This document shows positions 3,651 through 63,725 of a stretch of 64,000 bases of DNA, in pieces. Within the stretch, counting starts at the first letter, position 1. Every line of letters starts with the position of its first letter. Source of the DNA: Faecalibacterium sp. I3-3-33 (lineage in GTDB: Bacteria > Bacillota > Clostridia > Oscillospirales > Ruminococcaceae); NCBI RefSeq assembly GCF_023347295.1, contig NZ_CP094469.1:868001-932000 (forward strand). The letters are read 5' to 3'. The notes under the pieces are model-generated. The model was not told the DNA's origin. It saw only the letters and a program-made list of their open reading frames with translations, and ran no database searches. The position numbers and the translations under genes are program-made.

Positions 3651-3711
3651 ATCAAGGCGGGAAAGCCCTAAAATGGCTTCACACCTATTTCAATAATTGG
3701 AGGAGATAAAA

Positions 3712-10966: not shown

Positions 10967-11060
10967 CGGTTCACCAACTTTCTGCTTGCTTATTCAAGCT
11001 AATAATACCATAAGTTCGTGATTTTTACAAGTGAACGATTCAAATGTTATCGAGGGGGTG

Positions 11061-24440: not shown

Positions 24441-24559
24441 GGCTCCCGCCTGAAACCGAAGCGCACAGCACTCCGTTCCAAGGTGGCGAGCACAACCGAA
24501 TACGATTCCAGACCGTTCACAAGAGCAATCTTGTTGGGCGGTCTTTTTGTTTGGGGGTG

Positions 24560-26137
24560 ATGCCTATTCCGTGTCCGCATTTCAAAATCACCATCGTCAA
24601 GCGCAGCCAAGGGCAGTCCGCTGTTGCCGGGGCCGCTTACCAAAGCGGCGAACGGCTATTCAGTGAGTACGACCAGAAAACGAAATTCTACAACAAGAAG
24701 AAAGAGCTTGTCCATGCCGAGATCATGCTGCCGTCCCATGCGCCGCCCGGATATGCAGACCGGGCAACCCTCTGGAACGCCGTGGAAGCTGTGGAGAACC
24801 AGTGGAACTCCCAGCTTGCCAGGCGCATCGTTCTGGCGTTCCCGGTGGAGGTTCCGAAAGAGCAGTATCTTTCCATGATAAAGGAATTTTGTCAGGAGCA
24901 GTTTGTTTCCAAAGGGATGATTGCCGACTTTGCCATCCATGACAAGGGAGATGGGAACCCACACGCCCACATTTTGCTGACGCTCCGGGCAATGGATGAA
25001 CACGGCAAGTGGCTCCCGAAAGCCCGCAAGGTTTACGACCTTGACGAAAACGGCGAGCGCATCCAACTCCCATCCGGCTACTGGAAGTGCCATAAGGAAA
25101 ACACGGTGGACTGGAACGACCAGAAGTATGCCGAGGTCTGGCGGCACAGCTGGGAAGTTGTTACCAACCGCTATCTGGAAGCCGCTGGCAGACCAGAACG
25201 TGTTGACCTACGCTCCTTTGAGCGGCAGGGCATCCAGCAGATACCGACCGTGCATCTCGGCCCCGCTGCTCACCAGATGGAAAAGCGAGGAATCGAAACC
25301 TTTCTCGGAAATCTCAACCGGGATATTCGCGCCGCCAACAGCTTGATGCAGTCCATCCGCAGCACCATCCGTGGTCTGCAACACTGGATCGCAGACCTGA
25401 CCGAAAAGAAGCAGCTTTTTCTGGATGCTCTGGAAAAAGCGAAGGAACCCACGCTGTCCGACTTGTTGGTGGATTACTTCAACCTTCGCAACGAGCAGCG
25501 CAGCGATTGGTCTGACAAGGCAAAACTGAAATGCACTGTCCGGGACTTTGAGGAAATTCGGCAGGCAGTGGACTACCTGAAAGCCCACTCGCTGAACACG
25601 GTCGAGGACTTGAATGCTGCAATCAAAGACCTGAGCCAAACCGCTGCCCCGCTACGCAAGCAGCTGAAGCAGAACGAGAACCATATGCAGGCAATCGCCC
25701 AGATCAAGGATGCTGCTGCCATCCATGCCAAGCTGAAGCCCATCCACGATACCTTTATCAAGAAGAACTTCAAACTCGCCAAGGATGCTTATGCCGCCCA
25801 GCACAAGGATGAACTGGACACGTTCAATAAAGCTGTCCGCACCCTGATGAAGCTGAACGGCAGCACAGCGGTGGATTTTTCGGCATTGGATGCCGAATTT
25901 TCTGCGCTGCAATCCGGCAGCGCAGAGCTGCGCAGCCAACTGGAAACTTTGCAGCCGGACATCTCCGCTTTGAAAAATATCCGCAAGTATATCGACATGG
26001 TGCTGAATAAGCAGCAGCTTTCCGCATCGGACGGCAAGACCCCGGAGAAAGAATCTGTGCTGAAGAAGCTGCATGAAGCCAAAGCCACCGCCGCCCCGAA
26101 GAGACCGGAGCAGCAGAAGAACACACCGGAACTTTAA
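24560..26137 (+). CDS. MobA/MobL-family relaxase, copy B
   Basis: The protein is 525 aa from MPIPCPHFKITIVKRSQGQS, behind TTGGGGGTG. The catalytic block DKGDGNPHAHILLT is kept. It is about 93% identical to copy A until residue 510, after which the tails differ. The start is placed at ATG 24560 because similarity with copy A begins there; the frame is open further upstream through the oriT block. A primase-helicase gene follows after 12 bp. Confidence 0.92.
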   Translation: MPIPCPHFKITIVKRSQGQSAVAGAAYQSGERLFSEYDQKTKFYNKKKELVHAEIMLPSHAPPGYADRATLWNAVEAVENQWNSQLARRIVLAFPVEVPKEQYLSMIKEFCQEQFVSKGMIADFAIHDKGDGNPHAHILLTLRAMDEHGKWLPKARKVYDLDENGERIQLPSGYWKCHKENTVDWNDQKYAEVWRHSWEVVTNRYLEAAGRPERVDLRSFERQGIQQIPTVHLGPAAHQMEKRGIETFLGNLNRDIRAANSLMQSIRSTIRGLQHWIADLTEKKQLFLDALEKAKEPTLSDLLVDYFNLRNEQRSDWSDKAKLKCTVRDFEEIRQAVDYLKAHSLNTVEDLNAAIKDLSQTAAPLRKQLKQNENHMQAIAQIKDAAAIHAKLKPIHDTFIKKNFKLAKDAYAAQHKDELDTFNKAVRTLMKLNGSTAVDFSALDAEFSALQSGSAELRSQLETLQPDISALKNIRKYIDMVLNKQQLSASDGKTPEKESVLKKLHEAKATAAPKRPEQQKNTPEL

Positions 26138-40183: not shown

Positions 40184-40627
40184 TCATAAACGCTGCAAGA
40201 GCATCCCTTCTAACTTCATGTGATATTGTTCCAGCACATCTTTCAGCGTGATTCCTTGCATTCTTTGTTCCGCTGTTTTTTGAATGTCCAAGTAAAAATC
40301 CCGCAGCACCAGTTGGATATTTACACCCACGCCACAAGCAGGGTTGGTGTGGATGTCCTGATGGAGCAGGGGCTTGTCGCCCTCTACTGCCCGATAGGCA
40401 TCCAGCAGAGTGATTTTCTCCGGCTCACGAGCCAGAGCAGGTCGGGGATGTCCCTTCACGCTGACCAGCAGTCCACCCTTCCGCAGGGCGGACATGAGCT
40501 GGCGCACATAGGCAGGATTCGTCTGAATGCTCTCTGCCAGCTTGTTACTGGTCAGGTCGCAGTCTGGGTACAGAGCGATAAAAGCCAGTATATGAACAGC
40601 ATCGCTAAGGCGGGTGGGATATTTCAT
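40184..40627 (-). CDS. Rrf2-family transcriptional regulator
   Basis: The 147-aa protein has an Rrf2 winged helix (MKYPTRLSDAVHILAFIAL, SNKLAESIQTNPAYVRQLMS, GGLLVSVKGHPRP). The three-Cys Fe-S cluster of IscR/NsrR is absent; there is one Cys at 22 and one in NPACGVG, so it is a YwnA-like redox or ligand sensor instead. It is divergent from the sirtuin operon with a 120-bp gap that contains the promoter at 40672-40700, and is its probable regulator. Confidence 0.92.
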   Translation of the reverse strand: MKYPTRLSDAVHILAFIALYPDCDLTSNKLAESIQTNPAYVRQLMSALRKGGLLVSVKGHPRPALAREPEKITLLDAYRAVEGDKPLLHQDIHTNPACGVGVNIQLVLRDFYLDIQKTAEQRMQGITLKDVLEQYHMKLEGMLLQRL

Positions 40628-40671
40628 GGACTGATCTCCTTTTTTGATGTTATTTTTATTATAACAGCATA

Positions 40672-40700
40672 TTGACAGTGACGCAAGAGGATGCTAAAAT
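40672..40700 (+). promoter_or_regulatory. Promoter of the sirtuin operon
   Basis: TTGACA (40672-40677), a 17-bp spacer and TAAAAT (40695-40700) form a near-consensus sigma-A promoter. It lies in the divergent gap with the Rrf2 gene, where an Rrf2 operator would be expected. Confidence 0.75.
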
Positions 40701-40740
40701 GATTTGAAGTAAGAATAAAAATAACACCCGCTTGAAAAGA

Positions 40741-41730
40741 ATGGTGACAATGAACTTCTATGATGATCTGGTCATGCAGACCCAGATGAATTATTCCAGG
40801 CACTATCCTATCTATGCTTCCGGCAGTACGCCTTATCAGCTGACTGACAAAAAGCCGCTGCCGTATAGCGAACAGATCCATCGTTTGGTACAGGAGGTAA
40901 AGGAAGCTGACTGTGTGGTAGTGGGCGGGGCCTCCGGCCTGTCCGCTGCCGGTGGCGGAGATTTTTACTACGAGGACAACGACTCCTACCGTAAATACTT
41001 CCGACCTTTTGCCGAGAAGTACCACTTCAAAGGTGCTTTTGCAGGGATGATGCACCCCTGGAAGACAAGGGAAGAGTATTGGGGGTATCTTGCCACCTTC
41101 CTTCACACCACCCAGACCGCACCTGTGCGTCATTCCTATTTGGATTTAGACGCTTTGCTGAAAGGTAAGGACTTCTTCATCCTCACCACCAACCAGGATA
41201 CCCAGTTTGTCAAACTCTACCCGGAGGAGAAGGTGGCAGAGATTCAGGGGGATCACCGCTTCTTCCAGTGTGCCGCCTGTTGTACCGATGACACTTGGGA
41301 TGCGGTAAAGCCGGTGGCTGATATGGTAGCCGCTATGGGGGATGACACGAAGATTCCTACGAATCTCATTCCCCGGTGCCCCCACTGTGGCGGTGAGGCA
41401 TTCCCCTGGGTGCGAGGATATGGGAATTTTCTGCAAGGAAAGAAATATGAAGAACAGTACGAAAAAATTTCTCGCTACGTACTGGAACACAAAAACAGCA
41501 AAATTCTGTTCCTGGAGCTGGGCGTGGGCCGAATGACTCCCATGTTTATCCAAGAGCCTTTCTGGAACATGACCCTCAGCTTTCCCCATGCTCGATATAT
41601 TGCTGTCAACAACAAGTATGACTTCCTGCCCAAGCAGTTGGAGGACAAGGGCATGACCATTGTGGCCGACATTGCTCAAGTGCTGCGGGATGCACGGAAC
41701 ACCATGGAAAGCGGAGATAACGATCGATGA
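40741..41730 (+). CDS. SIR2-family protein 1 (class M-like sirtuin)
   Basis: This protein of about 329 aa starts at ATG 40741 or 40750; neither has a strong RBS. The NAD loop is GGASGLSAAGG (62-72), followed by TTNQD (149-153) and AEIQGDHRFFQCAACC (166-181), in which Gln replaces the catalytic His of deacetylase sirtuins. Zinc Cys pairs are QCAAC and RCPHCGG. Gln at this place is, as I recall, a trait of SirTM enzymes, protein ADP-ribosyltransferases linked to lipoate/GcvH-L and macrodomains. It has a 45-aa N-terminal extension not in the next two copies. It overlaps gene 2 by 4 bp. Confidence 0.88.
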   Translation: MVTMNFYDDLVMQTQMNYSRHYPIYASGSTPYQLTDKKPLPYSEQIHRLVQEVKEADCVVVGGASGLSAAGGGDFYYEDNDSYRKYFRPFAEKYHFKGAFAGMMHPWKTREEYWGYLATFLHTTQTAPVRHSYLDLDALLKGKDFFILTTNQDTQFVKLYPEEKVAEIQGDHRFFQCAACCTDDTWDAVKPVADMVAAMGDDTKIPTNLIPRCPHCGGEAFPWVRGYGNFLQGKKYEEQYEKISRYVLEHKNSKILFLELGVGRMTPMFIQEPFWNMTLSFPHARYIAVNNKYDFLPKQLEDKGMTIVADIAQVLRDARNTMESGDNDR

Positions 41731-42608
41731 GGGTTGCAAACCAAGCGACGCTTCAGGAACTTGCCGAGCGTATTGATCAAGCAGATGCTGTTGTGATCGG
41801 AGGCGGCTCCGGCCTGTCAAGCGCGGCTGGATACGACCACTACCATTGGTCCCCGGCACTTTCGGAGGCGTTGGCTCCCTTTCGCGAACAGTATGGCTTC
41901 ACCTCCCCGCTGGCTGGATTCTACCATTGCTTTTCCAGCTATGGAGAGCAGTGGGGATATTACAGTCAATATATCCGCTTCCTGTGGGAAGCCCCTACTG
42001 GGCAGCCCTATCTGGACCTGCAAGCACTTATTGCGGACAAACCTGCTTTTGTTCTGACCACCAATGTGGATCAGCAGTTTTTTCGGGTATTTCCCCAGGA
42101 ACAAATTTGCGCCTTTCAGGGAGACTTTAGCTACTGCCAATGCAGTCAGCCTTGCCGGGATGATATTTGGAAAAACCGCGAGCTGGTGAAGGAGCTGACC
42201 AGCCGCCTGAACGGTGTTCGCCTGCCGGAGGAAGTTATTCCTCGTTGCCCGGATTGCGGACGGGTGCTGGTGCCCTGGGTACGAGATGATACCTTCCTGG
42301 AGGGAACCTTCTGGCAGGATAGTCTGCACCGCTACCATAGCTTTCTGCGACACTGGATAATGGATCAGTCCGACAAAAAAGTCCTGCTGTTGGAACTTGG
42401 CGTGGGTGAGATGACACCCAGTATCATCAAACTACCCTTCTGGGAACTTACTGCCAAAAACGAAAACGTCTTTTATGCATGTCTTAATCGAGAGGCATCT
42501 CATAGTCCGGAGCATCTGCGGGGACGCAGCCTGTATCTGCAAGGAGATTTGGCGGAAACCCTAGCTACCCTCCGACAGGAGCGATCCATCGCGGCAAACA
42601 TAAAATAG
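41727..42608 (+). CDS. SIR2-family protein 2 (best-preserved class M-like sirtuin)
   Basis: In this 293-aa protein the NAD loop is GGGSGLSSAAG (25-35), then TTNVD (111-115) and AFQGDFSYCQCSQPC (129-143), the pattern I know from SirTM proteins, and a second zinc pair RCPDCG. The usual Asn-Asp pair for NAD binding is complete here, unlike copies 1 and 3. Of the three it is the most likely active ADP-ribosyltransferase. It is translationally coupled to copy 1 by ATGA. Confidence 0.9.
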   Translation: MRVANQATLQELAERIDQADAVVIGGGSGLSSAAGYDHYHWSPALSEALAPFREQYGFTSPLAGFYHCFSSYGEQWGYYSQYIRFLWEAPTGQPYLDLQALIADKPAFVLTTNVDQQFFRVFPQEQICAFQGDFSYCQCSQPCRDDIWKNRELVKELTSRLNGVRLPEEVIPRCPDCGRVLVPWVRDDTFLEGTFWQDSLHRYHSFLRHWIMDQSDKKVLLLELGVGEMTPSIIKLPFWELTAKNENVFYACLNREASHSPEHLRGRSLYLQGDLAETLATLRQERSIAANIK

Positions 42609-42624
42609 AAAGGGGCAAACGAAT

Positions 42625-43461
42625 ATGATTGATTGGAATCCTATTGCGGAAAAATTCAGAGAAGCGGACGCTATCCTGATCGGGGCCAGTAACGGACTGT
42701 CCATCACCGAGGGACTGCATTTGTTTGCGGACAATGCGGCCTTTGATGAATTGTTTGGAGATTTCAAACAAAAATACGGCTTACATTGTATTTTGCAGGG
42801 CATGATGGCCGGATGGCCCAGCGAGGAGGAAAAGTGGGCCTTCTGGACTCGGCTCATCCATCATTACTGCGGGCAGTACCAGCCTACGCCGGTGATGAAC
42901 GATTTGAAGGCCATTGTGGGAGAGAAAGATTACTTTGTCGTCACATCAAACGGAGAAGGTCACTTTGAACTGTGTGGCTTCGATCCGACGAAAATCTATG
43001 AGATCGAGGGCAACTGGTTTACGATGCAGTGTGCCCATCCCTGCCACGACACCCTCTATTCAAGTTTAGAGGTGGCCGAAAAATTATCGGCTGCCGAACA
43101 GGGCGGCCATGTGCCTACAGAGTTGGTGCCGCGTTGTCCCAAGTGCGGCGGTCCCATGGACATCCACATGGGTGCGGGTCAGAGAATGATTCCGGATACC
43201 GCTGCCCAGGCACGGTTCCAAAACTTTCTGAAAACCTACCACGGAAAGAAACTGGTGGTTTTGGAGCTGGGCATTGGCTGGCGTAATCAACTGATCAAGG
43301 CCCCGATGATGCGCCTGGTGGCCAGCGAGCCAAACGCCACTTATGTGACCCTCAATCTTGGTGAGATCTACATTACGGACAATATCAAAGAGAAGTCCTT
43401 CGGACTGGACGGGCGGCTGGATGAGCTGCTGCCTGCTCTCCGGGAGGCGTGCGAGGCATAA
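42625..43461 (+). CDS. SIR2-family protein 3 (degenerate NAD site)
   Basis: The 278-aa protein starts behind AAAGGGG, 16 bp after copy 2. The fold and zinc Cys are kept (MQCAHPC, RCPKCGG), and the first loop is GASNGLSITEG. The NAD-site TTNVD is replaced by TSNGEG (107-112) and QGD by EGN (128-130). NAD-dependent catalysis is therefore doubtful. It may be a pseudoenzyme regulating the other two. The degree of overall conservation argues against simple decay. Confidence 0.87.
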   Translation: MIDWNPIAEKFREADAILIGASNGLSITEGLHLFADNAAFDELFGDFKQKYGLHCILQGMMAGWPSEEEKWAFWTRLIHHYCGQYQPTPVMNDLKAIVGEKDYFVVTSNGEGHFELCGFDPTKIYEIEGNWFTMQCAHPCHDTLYSSLEVAEKLSAAEQGGHVPTELVPRCPKCGGPMDIHMGAGQRMIPDTAAQARFQNFLKTYHGKKLVVLELGIGWRNQLIKAPMMRLVASEPNATYVTLNLGEIYITDNIKEKSFGLDGRLDELLPALREACEA

Positions 43462-44808: not shown

Positions 44809-45498
44809 GTGGCTGTTTGTATTAAAGACTGTATTCAGAACATGAATCTGGTGATCGGCTGTACGATCGGTTGCAGCTACTGCTATGCCAGAAACAATGT
44901 CCGCCGGTTTCACATGATTGATGACTTTGAAAAGCCGGAGTTTTTTCCCAATAAGCTGCGGCTGATGGAGAAAAAGCGCCCACAGAATTTTCTGCTCACC
45001 GGCATAAGCGATTTTTCCCACTGGAAGCCAGAATGGCGGGAACAGATATTTGCCAAGATGACTGAAAATCCGCAGCACCAATATCTGTTTTTGACCAAGC
45101 GACCGGAAGATATTGTGTTTTCCACTACCCTAGAGAATGCGTGGTTTGGTGTAACTGTTACCTCCAGTAAAGAGAAAAACCGTATCCGGACTTTGCGGGA
45201 GAATATCCATGGCGGACACTATCATGTGACCTTTGAACCTATGTTTGATGAGGTTGGCATGGTAGACCTTACCGGAATTGAGTGGATCGTCATTGGGACT
45301 GAGACCGGACATAGGAAGGGCAAAGCTGTATCGAAACCGGAATGGGTGTGGAGCCTGACACATCAGGCCCATGCGCTTGGCATCCCTGTATTTATGAAGG
45401 AAGATCTGCTTCCTATCATGGGAGAGGCACAGATGGTACAAGAATTTCCCCCGGCTTTTTACCGGGTATTGGAGGAACAGAAGACATGGCGGAAGTAA
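44809..45498 (+). CDS. Radical SAM mobile pair protein A
   Basis: The protein is 229 aa from a GTG behind AAGGAGG. The radical SAM cluster motif is CTIGCSYCYA (Cx3Cx2C), followed by NFLLTGISDFSHWKPEW and FLTKRPEDI, as in DUF5131/Gp37-like proteins. This matches the A member of the radical SAM mobile pair family as I recall it. It overlaps the B gene by 13 bp. Substrate unknown; members of the broader group resemble spore photoproduct lyase in part. Confidence 0.87.
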   Translation: MAVCIKDCIQNMNLVIGCTIGCSYCYARNNVRRFHMIDDFEKPEFFPNKLRLMEKKRPQNFLLTGISDFSHWKPEWREQIFAKMTENPQHQYLFLTKRPEDIVFSTTLENAWFGVTVTSSKEKNRIRTLRENIHGGHYHVTFEPMFDEVGMVDLTGIEWIVIGTETGHRKGKAVSKPEWVWSLTHQAHALGIPVFMKEDLLPIMGEAQMVQEFPPAFYRVLEEQKTWRK

Positions 45499-46403
45499 AA
45501 GAGAGCAGCATTCTGATTCAGGATGTAGAAACCAAAAATATTATGACAAAATCCTCCCTGCCGGTGGGCGGCTATTCTGTCAATCCTTATGTGGGCTGTA
45601 CCCATGGCTGCAAATACTGCTACGCCTCGTTTATGAAGCGATTTACCGGGCACACCGAACCGTGGGGGACATTTCTGGATGTGAAACATTGGCCAGCAAT
45701 CAAAAATCCGCAAAAATACAAAGGACAGCGCGTAGTCATCGGTTCAGTGACCGATGGCTATCTGCCCCAGGAGGCTCAGTTTCAGAACACCCGAAAGCTT
45801 CTTGAACAGCTCCGGGGCAGTGAGGCAGAAATTCTCATCTGTACCAAGTCAGACTTGGTAATCCGTGACATCGACCTTCTGAAAAAATTGGGAAAGGTCA
45901 CGGTCTCTTGGTCGATCAATACATTGGACGAAGGCTTTAAAAATGATATGGACGATGCCGTCAGCATCAAGCGACGGCTGGAGGCCATGAAGCAGATCTA
46001 TGATGCGGGCATTCGCACCGTCTGCTTTATTGCACCTGTCTTTCCGGGTATCACGGATTTTGAGGCTATCTTCCATCAGGTCAGAAATCAATGCGACCTG
46101 ATATGGTTAGAAAATCTAAACCTGCGAGGCGGATTCAAAAAAGACATCATGGACTATATTTGTAAAAAATATCCTGACTTGGTTCCGCTGTACGACGCTA
46201 TCTACAACAAGGGAGACAGAAGCTACTTCCGTGGTTTGGAGGATCAAGCGGAACGGCTGGCGAAAGAAAACAACTGTCCCTTCGTGGACAACGAGCTGCC
46301 CTACGGACGAGCAGAGCCTGGGCACCCGGTCATTGTGGATTACTTTTACCATGAGGAAGTGCGTGGCTCGGAAAACACCGGGCGACGCAACCAAAAAAAA
46401 TAA
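45486..46403 (+). CDS. Radical SAM mobile pair protein B
   Basis: The protein is 305 aa from MAEVKESSILIQDVETKNIM behind TTGGAGGAA. The cluster motif is CTHGCKYCYA, then VVIGSVTDGYLPQE and ILICTKSDLVIRDIDLL, a full radical SAM barrel. It is the partner of protein A and both are needed together by inference from the overlap. The pair travels between genomes on mobile islands. A perfect terminator follows. Confidence 0.88.
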   Translation: MAEVKESSILIQDVETKNIMTKSSLPVGGYSVNPYVGCTHGCKYCYASFMKRFTGHTEPWGTFLDVKHWPAIKNPQKYKGQRVVIGSVTDGYLPQEAQFQNTRKLLEQLRGSEAEILICTKSDLVIRDIDLLKKLGKVTVSWSINTLDEGFKNDMDDAVSIKRRLEAMKQIYDAGIRTVCFIAPVFPGITDFEAIFHQVRNQCDLIWLENLNLRGGFKKDIMDYICKKYPDLVPLYDAIYNKGDRSYFRGLEDQAERLAKENNCPFVDNELPYGRAEPGHPVIVDYFYHEEVRGSENTGRRNQKK

Positions 46404-46469: not shown

Positions 46470-46646
46470 AAGCATCAACATGATCATCATTCAGAGTATG
46501 CCATGGTCTATTCCGATGAGATTGAGGACAAAATCGACCAGATCATGTTGGAGCTGAAGCACTGTTATCCTAATCTGATCAACTACCGCTGGCATGCGCT
46601 GAAGCTGCTGGAGGAGATACCCCAATGCAATGCTCATGTGCGGTAA
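46470..46646 (+). pseudogene. feoB: FeoB internal fragment
   Basis: The frame reads HQHDHHSEYAMVYSDEIEDK, then NLINYRWHALKLLE and stops. Ser/Asp-Glu-Ile-Glu followed by RWHALKLLE is the helical segment behind the G domain of FeoB, the ferrous iron transporter. The GTPase, membrane part and start are missing. The upstream end lies under the terminator at 46419-46460, so it probably was cut by insertion of the sirtuin-radical SAM island. Confidence 0.65.
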
Positions 46647-46789
46647 AGTAACACACAAGAATTTAATAGACAACAGCCCCTCACTATTCCTAAAATTAAG
46701 GGAAAATAAATAGATTTCTTAAAATCTGTATGGTAGAATATGATTATGAACAAATCAACAAACAAGAATTGATATGGGAGGATAACAAT

Positions 46790-47278
46790 ATGTCAAGATT
46801 AGGTATGCTTTATGCACTGAACGAAGAAGATGTAAAAAAACTTCGCTCTGTGCCAGAAGAAGAACGATATGAATATATGTTGGAAGAAATAGAAGAAGCC
46901 TTAATCGGAAGTCCGCGCAGTTGTGAATTAGATAAAGCATGGGAGGGTATTCAGTATTGCTTAGGTGGTGGACAATGGAATGAAGATAATTGCATCCCGA
47001 CTAATATTGTCTTTGGCGGAGAAGTTTTGGTAGAAACGGATGATGAAATTATTACATTGAAAAATCATCAAGATGTCAGAGATATTGTTGAATATCTTCA
47101 TCAGAATAAATTGCAAGAAATAATACAAAAGAACTTTTGGAATATTGATGATGAAAATTTTATGTATAAAAACGATGATGGATTAGAACACACTTTAGGT
47201 TGGAGCGAAGAAATTCTTGCTTTTTACGAAAACGCACTGAAAGAAAATTGCCAAGTGATTTTTACTGTTGACTTTTAA
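46790..47278 (+). CDS. DUF1877-family (YfbM-like) protein
   Basis: The protein is 162 aa from MSRLGMLYALNEEDVKKLRS behind TGGGAGG; ATG 46790 is chosen over an upstream in-frame start for that reason. CELDKAWEGIQYCL and NIVFGGE fit the DUF1877/YfbM group of small cytosolic proteins, whose role is unknown. It is AT-rich, unlike its neighbours, so it was probably acquired separately. Confidence 0.78.
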   Translation: MSRLGMLYALNEEDVKKLRSVPEEERYEYMLEEIEEALIGSPRSCELDKAWEGIQYCLGGGQWNEDNCIPTNIVFGGEVLVETDDEIITLKNHQDVRDIVEYLHQNKLQEIIQKNFWNIDDENFMYKNDDGLEHTLGWSEEILAFYENALKENCQVIFTVDF

Positions 47279-47306
47279 GCAAATTTCAGTTTATCGAGCA
47301 GATAGC

Positions 47307-47380
47307 AAATCCAGCCGAGCCAGTCAACGGCAAGCAAGTGGGCTTCGCCCACCGTTGACAGCCTCGCCCGTTTTTGCTGA
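47307..47380. repeat. Hairpin repeat shared with 3568-3650
   Basis: GCCGAGCCAGTCAACGG, a short inner hairpin (GTGGGC...GCCCAC) and CCGTTGACAGCC repeat the unit in the resistance insertion with a different middle. It lies at the left side of the Tn1549-like element. Confidence 0.7.
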
Positions 47381-47734
47381 TAAGCAGCCAAGAGGACGAT
47401 AGCCCAAAGTGCTACCGCCCTCTTTTATTATTTACAACTGAATAACCGTCGCCACGCAGCGGCACATGAAGCAGTAAATCCGAAAAAGATTTGCTGCTTT
47501 TTTGTTGTCCGTTTGGCAAATTTCAAAATGTTCTGTATTAGGGAATGAAGCCGGAAAAAGCCGCTGATTTTTTCATACAGCGGGCAAAACGCAGCCAGCC
47601 CAACGCTCTATGTGTGAAAAAAAGCTGGTTGCGATTTCCCGAAAAAGTGGCAGTAGGAAGTGAGCGGCAGTCCGGCAGTTTCTTAGAGCAAGATTCTACC
47701 GCAGTACCAAAATTCGCTTTTCGCTCATTTTGCC

Positions 47735-47825
47735 CCTGCGGGAATCTTGTTGGGGAGTGCCTTCCCCAAACCCTGCTTATGCGGCTTACGCCGCTTATCC
47801 CGCCGCAGCCATGCGGCAGCCGAAA
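47735..47825. other. Candidate oriT of the Tn1549-like element
   Basis: Three inverted repeats lie in series before mobC: TTGGGGA/TCCCCAA (47750-47769), GCGGC/GCCGC (47781-47794) and GCCGCA/TGCGGC (47802-47817). The block has no convincing gene. In related elements oriT lies directly upstream of mobC, so this is the expected place. The 460 bp between the DUF1877 gene and here otherwise hold only the hairpin repeat. Confidence 0.5.
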
Positions 47826-47838
47826 GGAGGTTTTTACC

Positions 47839-48237
47839 ATGCGAAAACGATACAACACGCCGCACCGCAGCCGGGTAGTCAAGACACGCATGACCGAGGA
47901 AGAATACGCCGAGTTTGCGGAAAGGCTTTCTGCCTGCAACATGAGCCAAGCCGAGTTTATCCGGCAAGCCATAACCGGGGCAGCCATACGCCCCATCATA
48001 ACCGTTTCCCCCGTCAATGACGAGCTGCTTGCCGCTGTCGGGAAGCTGACCGCCGAATACGGCAGGATCGGCGGCAACTTAAACCAGATAGCCCGGACGC
48101 TGAACGAGTGGCACAGCCCCTACCCGCAGCTTGCCGGGGAGGTACGGGCGGCGGTTTCCGACCTTGCTGCCCTAAAGTTTGAAGTCTTGCAGAAAGTGGG
48201 TGACGCTGTTGGCAACATTCAAACATATCAGCTCTAA
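47839..48237 (+). CDS. MobC-family relaxosome protein
   Basis: The protein is 132 aa from MRKRYNTPHRSRVVKTRMTE; ATG 47839 follows AAAGGAGG. An RHH-like N-terminus (VVKTRMTEEEYAEFAERLSA) and the family signature IGGNLNQIARTLNE are visible. It binds oriT and assists the relaxase whose gene starts inside its 3' end. A longer open frame upstream was rejected. Confidence 0.93.
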   Translation: MRKRYNTPHRSRVVKTRMTEEEYAEFAERLSACNMSQAEFIRQAITGAAIRPIITVSPVNDELLAAVGKLTAEYGRIGGNLNQIARTLNEWHSPYPQLAGEVRAAVSDLAALKFEVLQKVGDAVGNIQTYQL

Positions 48238-49831
48238 AAATGCCGACTATGGCGCAGCGGAAGCCTACCTCACATTTGAGCATGACGAGTTTACCATGAA
48301 GCCCACCCTTGATGAAAACGGGCGGCTGATACCGAGAGAGGATTACCGCATTTCTTCCCTCAACTGCGGGGGCGATGATTTCGCCGTTGCCTGTATGCGA
48401 GCCAATCTCCGCTATGAGAAAAACCAAAAACGGGAAGATGTGAAAAGCCACCACTATATCATCAGCTTTGACCCACGGGACGGGACAGACAACGGCTTGA
48501 CCGTAGACCGGGCGCAGGAGCTGGGCGAGCAGTTCTGCAAGGAGCATTTTCCCGGACACCAAGCCCTAATCTGCACCCACCCGGACGGGCATAACCACAG
48601 CGGCAATATCCATGTGCATATCGTCATCAACTCCCTGCGGATTTATGAAGTCCCGCTTCTGCCCTACATGGACAGACCAGCCGATACACGGGAGGGCTGC
48701 AAGCACCGCTGCACCAACGCCGCTATGGAATATTTCAAGAGTGAAGTCATGGAGATGTGCCACCGGGAGGGGCTTTACCAAATCGACCTCCTAAGCGGCA
48801 GCAAGGAACGGATAACGGAACGGGAATACTGGGCGGCAAAGAAAGGGCAGCTTGCCCTTGATAAAGAGAACGCCGCCAGAGAAGCCGCCGGACAGCCGAC
48901 CAAGCCCACCAAGTTTGAAACGGACAAGGCGAAGCTGCGCCGGACGATACGGCAGGCACTTTCCCAAGCTACCAGCTTTGACGAGTTTTCTTCCCTTTTG
49001 CTGCGTGAGGGTGTGACTGTCAAGGAGAGCCGGGGGCGGCTTTCCTACCTCACGCCGGACAGGACAAAGCCTATCACAGCCCGGAAGCTGGGGGACGATT
49101 TTGACAAGGCTACTGTCCTTGCCCTGCTTACACAGAACGCCCGCAGAGCCGCCGAACAGACCAAAGCCATACCCGAATACCCTGCCGCAGTTAAAAAGCC
49201 GTCACAAGGGGAAAAAACCACAAAAACCACACCGGCAGACAACACCTTGCAGCGCATGGTTGACCGGGAAGCCAAGCGAGCCGAGGGCAAGGGCGTGGGC
49301 TATGACCGCTGGGCGGCAAAGTACAATCTAAAGCAAATGGCGGCTACCGTTACCGCCTACCAGCAGTACGGCTTTTCTTCCCCGGAGAAACTGGACGAAG
49401 CCTGTTCTGCCGCCTATACCGCCATGCGGGAAAGCCTTACAGAGCTGAAGCAGGTGGAAAAGACGCTGGACGGGAAAAAGGAGCTGCAACGGCAGGTGCT
49501 TGCCTATTCCAAGACCCGCCCTGTCCGGGACGGGCTGAAACAGCAGAAAAACGCCAAAGCAAAAGCAGCCTACCGACAGAAGCACGAAAGCGACTTTATC
49601 ATAGCAGACGCAGCCGCCCGTTATTTCAGGGAGAACGGCATTTCCAAGCTGCCAAGCTATAAAGCCCTGCAAGCAGAGATTGAAACCCTTATCAAAGAGA
49701 AAAACAGCGGCTACAACGATTACCGGGCAAAACGGGAGGAATACCGCCGCTTACAGACCGTCAAGGGCAATATCGACCAGATTTTACGCCGGGAGCGCAA
49801 GCCTGTGAAAAGGCAGGAACAGGAGCGATAA
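48200..49831 (+). CDS. Relaxase/mobilization nuclease (Tn1549 type)
   Basis: The protein is 543 aa from GTG 48200, reading (M)TLLATFKHISSKNADYGAAE. The metal-binding region is ICTHPDGHNHSGNIHVHIVI. The C-terminal half is coiled coil, with the conserved AEGKGVGYDRWAAKYNLKQM that also occurs in the relaxase at 30939. It overlaps mobC by 38 bp. It should nick the candidate oriT at 47735-47825. It appears intact. Confidence 0.93.
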   Translation: MTLLATFKHISSKNADYGAAEAYLTFEHDEFTMKPTLDENGRLIPREDYRISSLNCGGDDFAVACMRANLRYEKNQKREDVKSHHYIISFDPRDGTDNGLTVDRAQELGEQFCKEHFPGHQALICTHPDGHNHSGNIHVHIVINSLRIYEVPLLPYMDRPADTREGCKHRCTNAAMEYFKSEVMEMCHREGLYQIDLLSGSKERITEREYWAAKKGQLALDKENAAREAAGQPTKPTKFETDKAKLRRTIRQALSQATSFDEFSSLLLREGVTVKESRGRLSYLTPDRTKPITARKLGDDFDKATVLALLTQNARRAAEQTKAIPEYPAAVKKPSQGEKTTKTTPADNTLQRMVDREAKRAEGKGVGYDRWAAKYNLKQMAATVTAYQQYGFSSPEKLDEACSAAYTAMRESLTELKQVEKTLDGKKELQRQVLAYSKTRPVRDGLKQQKNAKAKAAYRQKHESDFIIADAAARYFRENGISKLPSYKALQAEIETLIKEKNSGYNDYRAKREEYRRLQTVKGNIDQILRRERKPVKRQEQER

Positions 49832-50015
49832 AAACCACCCCAAAATGTACCCGAACCCATACAGAACAAGGGGGCTGCCCCGTACCCTATCCCCAATACC
49901 AAAGGATTTTTTAACGGGCTTACAGGGCAGAAAAACCCCGAAAATGATACCGAGATGATACAGAATTACCGCCGATACCGCCACACCAGCGGAAACGGCA
50001 GAAAGGAGCGCACCC

Positions 50016-50228
50016 ATGCCAAGAATGAGCAAGAAACGGCGGCTGGAATGGTCTTTTTTCCTGCGGCAAGTGAAAGTCGGGAATGCCACCTGCGACCGTA
50101 TCACATACAACGACCTCTGCCGGAGCTGTACCCATAGCTGCAAGCAGAGCTTCCGGGCGGTTATCATACTCTGCCCCCGCTACTACTCCAAACGCCGGAA
50201 AAAGGAGGACAGGGACAATGGCAGATAA
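50016..50228 (+). CDS. Small Cys-rich basic protein of the Tn1549-like element
   Basis: The 70-aa protein begins MPRMSKKRRLEWSFFLRQVK behind AAAGGAG and has CDRITYNDLCRSCTHSC, a possible zinc site. It ends in a basic tail that overlaps the next start. It is conserved in position in Tn1549-type elements as I recall; function unknown. Confidence 0.65.
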   Translation: MPRMSKKRRLEWSFFLRQVKVGNATCDRITYNDLCRSCTHSCKQSFRAVIILCPRYYSKRRKKEDRDNGR

Positions 50229-50967
50229 CCGCAAGTATTACTACCTCAAGCTGAAAGAGAACTTTTTTGACAGCGACTCCATTGTGCTGCTGGAAGATAT
50301 GAAAGACGGGATTTTATATTCCAATATCCTCTTGAAGCTGTACTTAAAATCGCTGAAAAACGGCGGGAAGTTACAGCTTGACGAGCATATCCCCTACACA
50401 GCGCAGATGATAGCAACACTGACCCGCCACCAGATAGGGACGGTTGAGAGGGCTTTAGAGATTTTCCGGCAGTTGGGGCTTGTGGAGCAGCTTGACAGCG
50501 GGGCTTTCTATATGACCGATATTGAGCTGATGATAGGACAGTCCTCTACCGAAGCCGAGAGGAAACGGGCTGCAAGGCTGGAAAACAAGGCACTTTTACC
50601 GCCCCGGACAAAAGGCGGACATTTGTCCGACATTCGTCCACCAGAGATAGAGATAGAGTTAGAGAAAGAGAAAGAGATAGAAAAAGAGAGAGAGGGAGAA
50701 ACGGGACACCCCGCCCCCGCTGCTTATGGCAGATACAACAATGTGATACTGACCGATACAGAGCTTTCCGGGCTGAAAACAGAGCTGCCCGACAAGTGGG
50801 AGTATTATATTGACCGGCTTTCCTGCCATATCGCTTCCACCGGGAAACAGTACCACAGCCATGCAGCCACCATTTACAAGTGGGCGCAGGAGGACGCTGC
50901 CAAAGGCAAGGCTGCCCCGAAACAGGGCATACCCGATTATTCATGCAAGGAGGGCGAGAGCTTATGA
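50218..50967 (+). CDS. Phage replisome organiser-like replication protein
   Basis: The protein is 249 aa from MADNRKYYYLKLKENFFDSD, behind AAAGGAGGAC. The N-terminal winged-helix domain (ILLKLYLKSLKNGGKLQLDE) is the phage replisome organiser domain, followed by a charged Glu/Lys linker (about 140-160) and a C-terminal DnaD-like part. It binds the element origin and recruits the DnaC-like loader encoded next, with 4 bp overlap. Confidence 0.88.
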   Translation: MADNRKYYYLKLKENFFDSDSIVLLEDMKDGILYSNILLKLYLKSLKNGGKLQLDEHIPYTAQMIATLTRHQIGTVERALEIFRQLGLVEQLDSGAFYMTDIELMIGQSSTEAERKRAARLENKALLPPRTKGGHLSDIRPPEIEIELEKEKEIEKEREGETGHPAPAAYGRYNNVILTDTELSGLKTELPDKWEYYIDRLSCHIASTGKQYHSHAATIYKWAQEDAAKGKAAPKQGIPDYSCKEGESL

Positions 50968-51818
50968 AAAACGAGATTGAAGCTATGATTACGGACATTA
51001 CAACTACTACCGCCGAAGCGGAGGACTACACAGGCGAGGACGGGCTTTTATACTGCGGCAAGTGCCATACGCCCAAAGAAGCCTACTTTGCAGAGGGAAA
51101 GACCTGTTTCGGGCGTGACCGCCACCCAACAGACTGCGACTGCCAGCGGGCAGCCCGTGAAAAGCAGCAAGCCGCCGAAAGCCGACAGAAGCACCTTGAA
51201 AAAGTGGAGGACTTGAAACGCCGGGGCTTTACCGACCCTGCTATGCGGAACTGGACATTTGAGCATGACAACGGCAGAAACCCACAGACCGAAACCGCCC
51301 GCTTTTATGTGGAGAGCTGGGAAACCATGCAGGCTGAAAATATCGGCTACCTGTTCTGGGGCGGTGTGGGGACAGGAAAAAGCTACCTTGCCGCCTGTAT
51401 CGCCAACGCCCTTATGGAAAAAGAGGTTGCCGTCTGCATGACAAACTTTGCAACGATACTGGGTGACCTTGCCGCCAGCTTTGAGGGCAGGAACGAATAT
51501 ATTTCCCGCCTTTGCAGCTACCCGCTGCTGATACTTGATGATTTTGGCATGGAGCGAGGGACAGAGTACGGGCTGGAACAGGTTTACAGCGTGATTGACA
51601 GCCGTTACCGAAGCGGCAAGCCGCTGATCGCCACGACCAACCTCACGCTGGAGGAATTGCAGCACCCGCAGGACACGCCCCACGCCCGTATCTATGACAG
51701 GCTGACTTCCATGTGCGCCCCCGTCCGTTTCACGGGCAGCAACTTCCGAAAGGAAACCGCACAGGAAAAGCTGGAACGCTTAAAGCAACTGATGAAGCAG
51801 CGAAAGGAGAGCCTATGA
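50964..51818 (+). CDS. DnaC-like helicase loader ATPase
   Basis: The protein is 284 aa from MKNEIEAMITDITTTTAEAE. There are Cys pairs near the N-terminus (YCGKCHTP, DCDC), then the AAA+ core with Walker A GGVGTGKS and Walker B LLILDDFGME, and the sensor ATTNL. It loads the replicative helicase for element replication. Start ATG 50964 overlaps the replisome organiser stop. Confidence 0.92.
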   Translation: MKNEIEAMITDITTTTAEAEDYTGEDGLLYCGKCHTPKEAYFAEGKTCFGRDRHPTDCDCQRAAREKQQAAESRQKHLEKVEDLKRRGFTDPAMRNWTFEHDNGRNPQTETARFYVESWETMQAENIGYLFWGGVGTGKSYLAACIANALMEKEVAVCMTNFATILGDLAASFEGRNEYISRLCSYPLLILDDFGMERGTEYGLEQVYSVIDSRYRSGKPLIATTNLTLEELQHPQDTPHARIYDRLTSMCAPVRFTGSNFRKETAQEKLERLKQLMKQRKESL

Positions 51819-52003
51819 CAGAAACGAAACAGACAAGCACCACCAAAACAGACCGCCGCCCGGACTGTGTAACGGAAATCCGCATGGGCAATTCCGTCCT
51901 TACCGTTTCCGGCTTCTTCAAGCAGGGCGCAACCGATACCGCAGCCGACAAGATGATGAAAGTGCTGGAAGCGGAGGCTGCTACACAAAAAACGGCGATT
52001 TGA
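51815..52003 (+). CDS. TnpW-like small transposon-encoded protein
   Basis: The protein is 62 aa from MTETKQTSTTKTDRRPDCVT, coupled to the DnaC-like gene by ATGA. CVTEIRMGNSVLTVSGFFKQ and TAADKMMKVL follow the same pattern as other TnpW-like proteins. Function unknown; it is distant from 12659-12832. Confidence 0.75.
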   Translation: MTETKQTSTTKTDRRPDCVTEIRMGNSVLTVSGFFKQGATDTAADKMMKVLEAEAATQKTAI

Positions 52004-52114
52004 CCGACCATAAAGAAGCAGATTTGACGCTTTTGCCGCTATACAGACAGCCGCCCCATGTGGTACAATCAAGGTACGGAATAGTGGGGCTGGCTGTCGG
52101 AAACGGAGGATTTT

Positions 52115-53725
52115 ATGTTAAGACAGACCAACCAACAACCAATTACCGCCCTTTACCCAAGACTTTCCCATGAGGACGAGCTGCAAGGCGAAAGCAATTC
52201 CATTTCCAATCAGAAGCGTATTCTTGAAACCTATGCAAAGCAGAACGGCTTTTCCAATCTGCGCTGGTACACGGACGACGGTTATTCTGGTGCGAACTTT
52301 CAAAGACCCGGTTTTCAAGCCATGCTTGCGGACATTGAAGCCGGAAAAGTCGGGACAGTTATCGTAAAGGATATGTCGAGGTTAGGGCGAAACTACCTGC
52401 AAGTGGGAATGTACACGGAAATGATTTTCCCACAGAAAGGTGTCCGCTTCATCGCTATCAATGACGGAGTGGACAGCGCACAGGGCGACAATGACTTTGC
52501 CCCGCTGCGGAATATCTTTAACGAATGGCTGGTGAGAGATACGAGCAAGAAAATCAAAGCAGTAAAACGCTCAAAAGGCATGAGTGGCAAGCCCATCACA
52601 AGCAAGCCTGTGTATGGCTACCTCATGGACGAGAACGAAAATTTCATTATTGACGAGGAAGCTGCACCCGTAGTCAAGCAGATATACAACCTCTGCCTTG
52701 CCGGGAATGGTCCGACCAAGATAGCCCGTATGCTCACAGAGCAGCAGATCCCCACGCCGGGGACGCTGGAATACCGCAGGACGGGCAGCACCCGCCGCTA
52801 CCACCCCGGCTATGAGTGCAAGTGGGCGACCAATACCGTTGTGCATATCCTTGAAAACCGGGAATACACAGGCTGTCTGGTAAACTTCAAGACAGAAAAG
52901 CTCTCTTACAAAGTCAAGCACAGCGTAGAAAATCCCCCGGAGAAGCAAGTGATTTTCGAGAACCACCACGAGCCTATCATAGACACCCAGACATGGGAAC
53001 GGGTGCAGGAACTTCGCAAGCAGCGCAAACGCCCCAACCGCTATGATGAAGTGGGCTTGTTCTCCGGCATACTGTTCTGTGCGGACTGCGGCAGTGTCAT
53101 GTATCAGCAGCGATACCAGACGGACAAGCGCAAGCAGGACTGTTATATCTGCGGCAACTACAAGAAGCGCACCCATGACTGTACGGCGCACTTTATCCGC
53201 ACCGACCTCTTGACCGCTGGTGTACTCTCCAATCTGCGGAAAGTGACAAGCTATGCGGCAAAGCATGAAGCCCGGTTTATGAAGCTCTTGATTGAGCAGA
53301 ACGAGGACGGGGGCAAGCGCAGGAACGCCGCCAAGAAAAAGGAACTGGAAGCCGCCGAGAAACGCATAGCCGAGTTATCCGCTATCTTCAAGCGGCTGTA
53401 TGAGGACAGCGTGACCGGGCGCATATCAGACGAGCGTTTCACAGAGCTGTCGGCAGACTATGAAGCAGAACAACGGGAGCTGAAAGAAAGAGCCGCCGCT
53501 ATCCAAGCGGAGCTTTCCAAAGCACAGGAAGCCACCGTGAACGCAGAAAAGTTTATGAATGTTGTCCGGCGGCATACCAGCTTTGAAGAACTTACCCCTA
53601 CTCTGCTGCGGGAGTTTGTAGAGAAAATCGTTGTGCATGAGTGCAGCTATGACGAGAACAAGACCCGCAGACAGGACATTGAGATTTATTATTCTTTTGT
53701 TGGCAAGGTGGACTTGCCCGAATAA
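52115..53725 (+). CDS. Large serine recombinase
   Basis: The 536-aa protein is of the TndX/TnpX type. The catalytic domain has Ser18 in ALYPRLSHEDE, then DGYSGANFQRPGF and KDMSRLGRNYLQVG. The recombinase domain, a zinc ribbon (FCADCG, CYICGNY) and a coiled coil follow. It excises and integrates the element by site-specific recombination. It is the last gene, as in related elements, with its att site expected just downstream. Confidence 0.95.
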   Translation: MLRQTNQQPITALYPRLSHEDELQGESNSISNQKRILETYAKQNGFSNLRWYTDDGYSGANFQRPGFQAMLADIEAGKVGTVIVKDMSRLGRNYLQVGMYTEMIFPQKGVRFIAINDGVDSAQGDNDFAPLRNIFNEWLVRDTSKKIKAVKRSKGMSGKPITSKPVYGYLMDENENFIIDEEAAPVVKQIYNLCLAGNGPTKIARMLTEQQIPTPGTLEYRRTGSTRRYHPGYECKWATNTVVHILENREYTGCLVNFKTEKLSYKVKHSVENPPEKQVIFENHHEPIIDTQTWERVQELRKQRKRPNRYDEVGLFSGILFCADCGSVMYQQRYQTDKRKQDCYICGNYKKRTHDCTAHFIRTDLLTAGVLSNLRKVTSYAAKHEARFMKLLIEQNEDGGKRRNAAKKKELEAAEKRIAELSAIFKRLYEDSVTGRISDERFTELSADYEAEQRELKERAAAIQAELSKAQEATVNAEKFMNVVRRHTSFEELTPTLLREFVEKIVVHECSYDENKTRRQDIEIYYSFVGKVDLPE

Positions 53726-53733
53726 CCGCCCGA

Positions 53734-53766
53734 CCTATCCGACACAATGCGCAAGTGCCGGATAGG
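53734..53766. terminator. Hairpin after the recombinase
   Basis: CCTATCCG and CGGATAGG pair perfectly around a 17-nt loop. AAAATTTTTT follows ten bases later. It may be a terminator or lie within the right attachment site. Confidence 0.6.
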
Positions 53767-53769
53767 AAC

Positions 53770-54024
53770 GGCAAAATTTTTTACACTTCTATTACTTCTT
53801 TATCACACATCAGTAAAAGCTGCTGGTCACCAGCAAAAACACCAGCAAAAAAGATTTTGAACCCGGTAATCGCAAAAAAATCTGTGCGAGAATTGCGACC
53901 GGTGATTATGATGCGGTTACAACATCATTATCGACCTTGCCCGAAAGTACAGCCGCAAGGTGCGGTATTTTGCCTATGCCAGTGCAACGAAATGCGCGGA
54001 ACAGGTCGTTGCGGAAGAGGAAAA
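53770..54024. other. Non-coding stretch right of the recombinase element
   Basis: No convincing gene was found. A 130-codon open frame here has no RBS or family features. The plus strand has a short plausible reading (IIIDLARKYSRKVRYFAYAS) without a start, perhaps a fragment of an unrecognised gene. Confidence 0.4.
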
Positions 54025-54733: not shown

Positions 54734-54928
54734 ATGGCAGCGCAGCGCACTTATCTGGCAATTTCTACGGGTGTGTATGGCTATCCGCTGGAGGCCGCCA
54801 CCCAAATTGCAGTGAATACAGTGGCGGATTGGCTGCAAAGCCACGCCGACTGCGATATGAAGGTCATCTTCTGTTGCTTTGATGCCCGGATGGCGCAGGC
54901 GTATCAGACAAAAATGAAAATGGAGTAA
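54734..54928 (+). pseudogene. Deletion scar: first codons of umuC joined to a macrodomain C-terminus
   Basis: The 64-aa frame starts MAAQRTYLAI, like the UmuC-type start KKRTYLAIDLKSFYASVEC at 58600, and turns at codon 10 into [20 protein letters not shown], the C-terminal third of the macrodomain protein at 62515-63036. Both parent sequences share GGCAAT at the joint. ADP-ribose-binding residues in the N-terminal part are absent, so it should be inactive. sfsA follows after 3 bp as in the intact copy. Confidence 0.9.
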
Positions 54929-54931
54929 ACA

Positions 54932-55597
54932 TTGAAATACAGAGAGATCGTGGACGGCATTTTTCTTGACCGTCCCAACCGTTTTATTGCCCATGTGGAC
55001 GTGAACGGTGCGGTAGAAACCGTCCATGTCAAAAACACCGGGCGGTGCAAGGAACTGCTGCTGCCCGGTGCGGAGGTGCGTCCGGAAGTGTCGGACAACC
55101 CGAAACGCAAGACAAAATACGACCTTGTGGCGGTCTACAAGCAGGAACTTGGCTGGGTCAATATGGACAGTCAGGCACCCAACAAGGTGGTAGGAGAATG
55201 GCTCTCAAAGCAGGAGTTTGACCTTGTCCGGTCGGAGTTTACCTACGGAAAATCCCGCATCGACTTCTACATGGAAAAAGGCGAACAGAAATACCTGCTG
55301 GAAGTCAAAGGCTGTACACTGGAAGTGGGCGGTATCGGTTATTTCCCGGATGCGCCCACTGAACGGGGCGTGAAGCACTTGCATGAGTTAGCGCAGGCGC
55401 AGCAGGCCGGATACCGGTGCGCGGTGGCATTTGTGATTCAAATGGAAGGCGTTACGGAAGTGCGGCCCAACATCAGCACACAGCCGGAATTCGGGATGGC
55501 TCTGGAACAAGCAAAGGCAGCAGGTGTGCGCGTGTTGTTTCTGCTATGCCGCATCAGACAGGACAGTCTGGAAATCACGGAGCAGCGGGAAGGCTGA
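54932..55597 (+). CDS. sfsA: SfsA-family protein, copy 1
   Basis: The protein is 221 aa from TTG (MKYREIVDGIFLDRPNRFIA). The OB-like N-terminus, NTGRCKELLLPGAEV, and the nuclease-like domain (FTYGKSRIDFYMEKGEQKYL, LEVKGCTLE) are typical of SfsA, described as a sugar-fermentation stimulation DNA-binding protein. The TTG start is supported by the identical arrangement in copy 2 and by GGAG nine bases upstream. It is about 88% identical to 63040-63705. Confidence 0.93.
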   Translation: MKYREIVDGIFLDRPNRFIAHVDVNGAVETVHVKNTGRCKELLLPGAEVRPEVSDNPKRKTKYDLVAVYKQELGWVNMDSQAPNKVVGEWLSKQEFDLVRSEFTYGKSRIDFYMEKGEQKYLLEVKGCTLEVGGIGYFPDAPTERGVKHLHELAQAQQAGYRCAVAFVIQMEGVTEVRPNISTQPEFGMALEQAKAAGVRVLFLLCRIRQDSLEITEQREG

Positions 55598-55619
55598 AGC
55601 CAGTACCGGCTTGGATAGA

Positions 55620-63036: not shown

Positions 63037-63039
63037 ACA

Positions 63040-63705: not shown

Positions 63706-63725
63706 AAAATTTTTCAGAAAACCTC

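Follow-up and report, generated by a model that had tools for sequence, protein, structure and literature searches.

Why would a bacterial genome carry three sirtuin genes in a row? In Faecalibacterium sp. I3-3-33 (host genome G000, 2.99 Mb in one contig), three open reading frames (ORFs), designated S1, S2, and S3, lie in tandem on the same strand within the 64-kb stretch of DNA analyzed here (positions 868001–932000, hereafter “the window”), as follows.

40750..41730, + strand: S1, class M-like sirtuin with a helical extension at the N terminus and a full catalytic set (N148, D150, Q166, R222, GVGRMTP)
40741 (ATG) and 40732 (TTG), + strand: in-frame alternative starts of S1
41727..42608, + strand: S2, class M-like sirtuin with a full catalytic set (TTNVD, FQGDF, VRDD, GVGEMTP); an optional third member
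42625..43461, + strand: S3, sirtuin fold with a rewritten active site (GASNGLS, TSNGEGHF, IEGNW, no Arg192, GIGWRNQ); a near-constant partner of S1

S1 and S2 overlap by 4 bp, and a gap of 16 bp separates S2 from S3. A preliminary description of this DNA explained the row as a stepwise loss of the nicotinamide adenine dinucleotide (NAD) site, with copy 2 as the one active enzyme and the other two copies as modified partners. We propose a different division of labor and hold it with modest confidence: S1 and S3 would assemble into a heteromeric ADP-ribosyltransferase of the class M-like type, with S3 as a conserved subunit that takes no part in catalysis.

All three proteins matched the sequence of the class M sirtuin SirTM of Streptococcus pyogenes (5A3A), with E values of 4.7e-44 for S1, 9.7e-42 for S2, and 9.4e-41 for S3, which bears out the earlier identification of three tandem class M-like sirtuins at this place. 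They are the only class M-like matches in the host genome, which elsewhere encodes one Sir2 protein above the Pfam cut-off. Among the three, only S1 matched Pfam SIR2, below the cut-off, and the sirtuin matches to the NCBIfam CobB models were far below theirs. The folds of S1 and S3 both match SirTM (a sirtuin fold like that of 5A3A), and Foldseek returned nothing beyond other fold comparisons of these two proteins with SirTM. The catalytic His of the HG motif in canonical Sir2 deacetylases (CobB) was not found in S1–S3, where its place holds Q or E. No family among the PADLOC anti-phage models (0 at an E value of 0.1) was matched by S1, S2, S3, or the adjoining Rrf2-family regulator described below. 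We found no description of the S1/S3 pair in the open-licence articles of PubMed Central (PMC); it may have been noticed in subscription-journal surveys of NAD-using operons, such as those of Aravind and co-workers.

The active sites were compared in an alignment of 148 sequences that included S. pyogenes SirTM (SpySirTM) and the three window proteins, the window being counted twice per class (WIN and L002; here and below, L, G, and P numbers denote loci, genomes, and proteins). Residues are named after their places in SpySirTM. According to the report on that enzyme (PMC4518038), mutating Asn118, Gln137, or Arg192 lowers activity, with Gln137 and Arg192 serving transfer to protein; nicotinamide is contacted by Ala34, Phe42, Ala119, and Asp120, the GVGx[NT]TP motif holds the pyrophosphate, and Asn258 holds the adenine ribose. 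Asn118, Asp120, Gln137, and Arg192 were retained in 37/37 S1 rows and 16/16 S2 rows, Asn258 was also kept by S1 and S2 of the window, and the final TP of the class motif was present in 36/37 and 15/16 rows, respectively, the remaining rows being cut or broken there. The Gln of QG, which stands for the catalytic HG as a class M trait, had been noted in copies 1 and 2 and is invariant in both classes. The residue between Asn118 and Asp120 varies (Q in S1, V in S2, and A in SpySirTM). At the Ala34 place, Ser stood in 35/37 S1 and 16/16 S2 rows, as against Ala in 44/47 canonical rows, and the [NT] place of the class motif was Met in both window proteins and Met or Leu across the S1/S2 rows.

The S3 rows kept Asn118 (42/42), but Asp120 and Gln137 had each become Glu in 42/42, and none of the 42 had Arg at place 192. 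Where the rows had letters, TP was replaced by NQ or a close variant in 41 of 42, Ala34 was replaced by Asn in 40/40, and Asn258 was retained in 40/40. In the window S3, GIGWRNQ, a GxGxRNQ loop, stands for GVGxxTP. Five S3 proteins from Bacilli plasmids (36–47% identity) shared the same rewriting, including Glu at place 137, but retained Asp120. The motifs quoted in the preliminary description, namely TTNQD and QGD in S1, TTNVD and QGD in S2, and TSNGEG and EGN in S3, are correct, but the gradient drawn from them is not: because S1 and S2 retain the full residue set and S3 alone is altered, two of the three sites in the locus are complete and the third is rewritten. The proposal of a single active enzyme in copy 2 is not supported either, since S1 also has the catalytic set and S2 is dispensable. 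The statement that all copies keep the zinc Cys is accurate for the window proteins, each of which has all four, but does not extend to the family, because these Cys were missing in S1 of three Lactobacillaceae plasmids examined and in most fused S3 domains.

The distribution of the genes separates S2 from the other two. A scan of genome contigs with an S3 pattern gave 63 loci: 44 carry S3-type genes or what remains of them, and the other 19 are canonical. For linkage counts, ORFs of at least 180 amino acids (aa; S3) or 200 aa (S1 and canonical) were assigned by class profile, and identical C-termini were counted once; the S3 remnants in L071 and L076 were too short to enter. S1 lay directly upstream (within 1.3 kb) of 52/53 S3 genes, in a few cases as an S1 piece at a contig edge, and the single S3 without S1 (L065) has only 751 bp of upstream sequence. 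Conversely, S3 lay directly downstream (within 1.3 kb) of 42/44 S1 genes; the two S1 genes free of S3 (L061 and L064) are extra copies, with another S1–S3 pair in the same locus. When 394 genomes of the order were queried with S1, five S1-type matches were obtained (G000, G429, G302, G431, and G282), 5/5 with an adjacent S3, while six weak partial matches (G273, G437, G211, G326, G425, and G292) were left unclassified and ten other weak matches all classed as canonical. Across 398 genomes of the phylum, the host genome alone gave an S1-type match. The S1–S2–S3 triplet, whose search in other genomes had been suggested, does recur, in at least three of 148 genomes of the family, but it is not the conserved element. 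S2 stands between S1 and S3 in many loci, after S3 in L066, and before S1 in L061, and it is absent from others; in L032, L035, and L037 it is cleanly missing, with the DNA on either side 93–96% identical to the window. The core unit is the S1–S3 pair, not the triplet, and S2 is optional. The cassette is common: 13,076 member sequences are represented by the top S3 cluster alone.

Furthermore, S1 and S3 occur as natural fusions. The window S1 and S3 were joined as one query and the 7,999 candidates sharing the most words were scored and 120 of 153 matches were covered, so that the counts are lower bounds; 32 proteins were assigned by profile (31 of the 117 new identifiers with at least 440 aa, plus P0091). 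At least 14 proteins consist of S3 followed by a complete S1 (P0123, P0126–P0134, P0140, P0213, P0224, and P0227), and at least two consist of S1 followed by S3 (P0179 and P0232). Of these, P0134 is encoded on a 602,886-bp contig, P0131 occurs on 25 contigs, and P0232 has 457 members. Fusion in both orders implies independent events, a usual sign of partnership, suggesting that the two proteins probably work as one two-part machine. The preliminary description had read the three genes as a heteromeric set that differs from SirTM operons described so far; the linkage and the fusions support that idea, but for S1 and S3 as the partners. In 12/14 S3–S1 fusions (P0126–P0134, P0140, P0224, and P0227), the zinc module was missing from the S3 half and the S1 half was complete, which speaks for S3 as the non-catalytic half; P0130 and P0140 were zinc-less by split profile matches only, and the other ten, like P0194, also by a spacing of 36–37 residues without Cys. 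Excluded from the fusion count were P0135–P0137 (S1 without its first loop), P0194 (start of S3 missing), P0121 (S1–S1), and P0215 (S2 with part of S3). P0121 and the shortened S3–S1 proteins P0135–P0137 possibly arose by recombination between tandem genes, or are assembly artefacts. S3 was also found fused to CGGC (P0091), DUF3786 (P0222), and cupin (L171) domains.

A maximum-likelihood tree of 100 rows (the alignment filtered by similarity and length [240 aa], with one L055 fragment dropped and 10 plasmid sequences added) was rooted at the midpoint, SpySirTM being a long branch. S3 formed one clade (100/100) with members from Clostridia and Bacilli, S1 formed one clade (100/98), and S2 formed one clade (100/100) beside S1, the ultrafast bootstrap value being 100% for each. 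Forty canonical rows and SpySirTM together made up one clade (100/99), outside which S1/S2 and S3 fell. The ratio of nonsynonymous to synonymous substitution rates (dN/dS), obtained by a simple count for each pair (dS exceeded 1 in many of them), was 0.06–0.13 for the window S3 against six orthologs, 0.04–0.14 for S1 (five of six pairs, one being saturated), and 0.08–0.11 for S2 (three pairs). As judged from these comparisons, the S3 active site is rewritten under purifying selection and conserved in orthologs ranging from Clostridia to plasmids of Bacilli. The dN/dS values and the conservation of the motifs ruled out that S3 is decaying into a pseudogene, although broken copies occur. Faecalibacterium sp. 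I4-1-79 carries two S1–S2–S3 cassettes on one chromosome (L033 and L049), and S3 is split in L049.

Is the cassette, then, a SirTM system? S1 shares the QG motif and the fold with the class M SirTM of S. pyogenes and Staphylococcus aureus (Rack 2015, PMC4518038), and S2 shares QG. The cassette differs from those systems in having no linked Zn-macrodomain or GcvH, in lying outside the macrodomain-linked sirtuin clade (100/99), in its second, rewritten sirtuin, and in the Ser at Ala34 and the Met or Leu in the class motif. Macrodomains were searched with profiles built from macrodomain proteins of these genomes, one seed from L096 having been taken from a wrong ORF and its own match removed from the count. 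A macrodomain lay within 600 bp of 85/103 canonical sirtuins and within 6 kb of only 1/53 S3 genes; in this one case (L070), the macrodomain comes after a canonical SirTM distinct from the pair. Flanks are short at several loci, and some macrodomains may be missed. Of 31 genomes selected among those with the 44 S3-type loci, 28 had macrodomains somewhere in the genome, as did the host genome at three places, and an unlinked eraser is therefore possible. The macrodomain at 62515–63033 was set aside as a cassette partner; it matches the O-acetyl-ADP-ribose deacetylase model NF001664 and lies 19 kb away. GCV_H was matched in 12 of the same 31 genomes (full length in 4, weak and partial in 8) and had no match in the host genome, and the GCV_H search found no GcvH-L encoded with the cassette. 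From its sequence, S1 would work like a SirTM without simply being one, as it lacks the macrodomain linkage and falls outside the clade of SpySirTM.

Three other systems are instructive. The minimal SirTM/Zn-Macro pairs of Clostridia belong to the same superfamily and are found in the same family and order as the cassette, but each comprises one sirtuin with an adjacent macrodomain (the 85/103 above) and the typical motifs GAG, TQGDY, NLRxD, and GVGxNTP. The fungal macrodomain-fused SirTM Mfs1 (8RSN) is, like the S1/S3 fusions, a two-domain fusion with a class M sirtuin, but its partner is a macrodomain rather than a rewritten sirtuin. Human FAM118A and FAM118B are, like S1 and S3, two sirtuin paralogs, and, according to PMC12700824, FAM118 activity needs both; they retain both Asn and His, are vertebrate and filament-forming, and stand closer to ThsA-type antiphage sirtuins. 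By analogy only, they may serve as a precedent for mutually dependent sirtuin paralogs, supporting a heteromeric reading.

Upstream of S1, a divergent regulator gene and a promoter-like region were read from the sequence.

40184..40627, − strand: Rrf2-family regulator (Pfam Rrf2, E value 1.4e-28), divergent from S1
40648..40666, + strand: palindrome TGTTATTTTTATTATAACA, putative Rrf2 operator 1
40672..40700, + strand: promoter-like TTGACA (40672–40677), 17 nt, and −10 element TAAAAT (40695–40700)
40708..40726, − strand: second palindrome-like site, putative Rrf2 operator 2, with 3 mismatches to site 1

The layout was similar in many of the upstream regions compared. At up to 3 mismatches, the palindrome had only these 2 matches in the window, against a mean of 0.00 in 100 shuffles. 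Its core stood 80–108 nt before the S1 start in 16/21 loci, and over the 21 loci the 190-nt stretches preceding S1 (3,990 bases in all) contained it 33 times, as against 23 times for the other 286,662 bases. The single Cys of Rrf2 (NPxC) was invariant in 17/17 aligned orthologs. We suggest that Rrf2 would bind the two palindromes around the S1 promoter and release the promoter on a redox or metal signal.

The neighboring genes give some indication of the cellular context. The pair adjoins NAD-salvage genes in two Bacilli plasmids and a Lachnospira metagenome-assembled genome. On the downstream side, NAPRT occurs in L061, L062, L169, and L170, with a fragment in L171, and isochorismatase in L062, L169, and L170, where HD genes also lie beside the pair. 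An HD-domain protein lies downstream in 10/50 loci (including L043, L046, L169, and L170), and other downstream neighbors include an E1-E2 ATPase with HMA, ArsR, CGGC, CbiA-type ATPases, and DUF3786. The names Rrf2, HxlR, NAPRT, isochorismatase, CGGC, DUF3786, HMA, and E1-E2 ATPase come from search matches, whereas “CooC-like,” “nicotinamidase-like,” and “heavy-metal” are our own reading. NAD-salvage neighbors would fit an NAD+-consuming enzyme, and the metal/redox neighbors together with Rrf2 would fit a stress response. The HD-domain protein after S3 is conserved (177–193 aa), and its gene overlaps the S3 stop in L046.

In the heteromer that we favor, S1 would be the catalytic subunit, cleaving NAD+ and passing ADP-ribose to a substrate via the Asn118/Gln137/Arg192 chemistry of class M. 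S3, presumably inactive, would pair physically with S1 and position or switch it; because Asn258 and the glycine loop remain, S3 probably retains the adenosine side of the nucleotide pocket. Where present, S2, which also looks competent, would be a second enzyme and might use S3 as well. Elsewhere, S3 bears additional domains (CGGC, DUF3786, or cupin) or has the HD protein after it. Several observations weigh against this proposal. Linkage and fusion can reflect a common pathway without contact. S3 retains Asn118 and a conserved Glu at the 137 place, and this Glu persists in the majority of fused S3 halves even where the zinc module is gone (IEGNF and similar), so that S3 may be a different kind of enzyme; the Glu is also kept in the divergent fusion P0232 (NEANW), while the site was not found by pattern in P0123, P0130, P0135–P0137, and P0140. 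Three S1 relatives in front of S3 (L061, L064, and L067) have Lys for Arg192. Copies are broken in S1 (L042, L077, and L091), S2 (L055), and S3 (L049, L071, and L076), indicating that the cassette is also lost. As for the regulation, Rrf2 was divergent from and adjacent to S1 in only 27/50 loci, and the palindrome core was not at its usual place in 5/21 upstream regions, being wholly missing in L053, L067, and L091. The NAD-salvage neighbors come from two lineages and one gene fragment (L171), and since flanking genes differ widely, the signal and the substrate are guesses.

The main rival explanations are a heteromeric NADase, an eraser role for S3, and a substrate role for S3. The first, in which S1:S3 would be an NAD+ glycohydrolase (NADase) that, like FAM118A/B, works only as a heteromer, perhaps as a stress or defence effector, is unlikely. 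According to PMC12700824, FAM118A and FAM118B show weak activity singly and strong activity in combination, and nicotinamide-recycling neighbors and a cassette that moves between genera (see below) would suit such an effector. However, both FAM118 partners need Asn and His (PMC12700824), and S3, which does have Asn, carries Glu where His or Gln would stand; moreover, no PADLOC model was matched, and S1 retains Gln137 and Arg192, which SpySirTM uses for transfer to protein (PMC4518038).

Alternatively, S3 might be reversed rather than dead. It would then be a sirtuin-fold ADP-ribosylhydrolase or an ADP-ribose sensor using the Glu at the 137 place and the GxGxRNQ loop, and writer and eraser (or reader) would be sister sirtuins in one complex, replacing the SirTM/Zn-macrodomain pair; we consider this rather unlikely. 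The eraser alone, with Glu for Gln137 and in the role of the Zn-macrodomain, is quite unlikely. The scarcity of macrodomains near S3 genes in comparison with canonical SirTMs would be explained in this way, as would the constancy of the Glu in all S3 rows, the five Bacilli plasmid proteins, and most fused S3 halves, including P0232. Nevertheless, the zinc-less S3 halves of 12/14 S3–S1 fusions lack half of the sirtuin cleft, and 28/31 S3-locus genomes have unlinked macrodomains. We know of no precedent for a sirtuin-fold eraser.

It is also doubtful that S3 is the acceptor, ADP-ribosylated by S1 and replacing GcvH-L as the operon-encoded substrate. Extended SirTM operons encode the substrate beside the enzyme, as stated in PMC4518038 and PMC11490716, and GcvH-L is the only known SirTM target according to the latter; the lack of a GCV_H match in the host, and of a full-length one in all but 4/31 S3-locus genomes, would be consistent with a substitute. 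A mere substrate, however, would need no conserved nucleotide-type pocket, and S3 retains GASNGLS, N118, EG, RNQ, and N258. A toxin–antitoxin-like pair, in which S3 would hold the effector S1 inactive, is very unlikely: sirtuin–macrodomain pairs are called type II toxin–antitoxin-like in PMC9503650 and the mobile cassette has its own putative repressor, but S1 and S3 are fused in both orders, and S1-clade genes stand free of S3 in L061 and L064, though with a second S1–S3 pair in the same locus. That the three are plain tandem duplicates working independently is highly improbable, since, homologous and alike in fold as they are, the genes keep the same order, strand, and partner in Clostridia and on Bacilli plasmids alike, S1 and S3 each form one clade, and fusions occur. 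If the S1:S3 heteromer is correct, a bacterial sirtuin would act jointly with a sister subunit that is rewritten yet conserved, and a class M-like lineage would do without the macrodomain after which the class is named; what SirTM-type enzymes modify where GcvH-L is absent would become testable.

The cassette appears to move as a unit. Blocks of 93–96% identity to records of Clostridium fessum, Faecalibacterium, and Fusicatenibacter, among others, begin at about 40.05–40.29 kb of the window and end at 43.47–43.66 kb; they suggest that this 3.4-kb unit has moved between genera. No convincing terminal repeats that would explain this mobility were found. A scan of viral_contigs gave no relative, and a phage collection gave three records at 32–36% identity. 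Radical SAM mobile pair proteins A and B are encoded at 44809–45498 and 45342–46403 (TIGR04471 and TIGR04470, both above cut-off), and relatives of this pair also come after the sirtuin genes at several further loci; our search found no paper under the name “radical SAM mobile pair.” An apparent mobile element at about 46635–53839 encodes a recombinase with weak XisF/Ccr matches and a protein that we take to be relaxase-like, which had no NCBIfam match. The element is absent from Faecalibacterium sp. I4-1-79 (L049), where window positions 46634 and 53840 map almost contiguously; carriage of the cassette as its cargo was ruled out, because L049 has the cassette without the element.

Other features were seen elsewhere in the window. 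A direct duplication of 0.84 kb (54757–55598 and 62871–63706, 85% identity) spans the end of the macrodomain gene and contains a gene that is presumably SfsA-like. In a low-GC stretch, positions 636–1373 and 3697–4578 match models for Erm(B) and ANT(6) above cut-off. Two genes at 11054–12572 and 24553–26071, which we assume to be MobA-like, are 91% identical over 1.5 kb, suggesting that the left half of the window holds related mobile elements.

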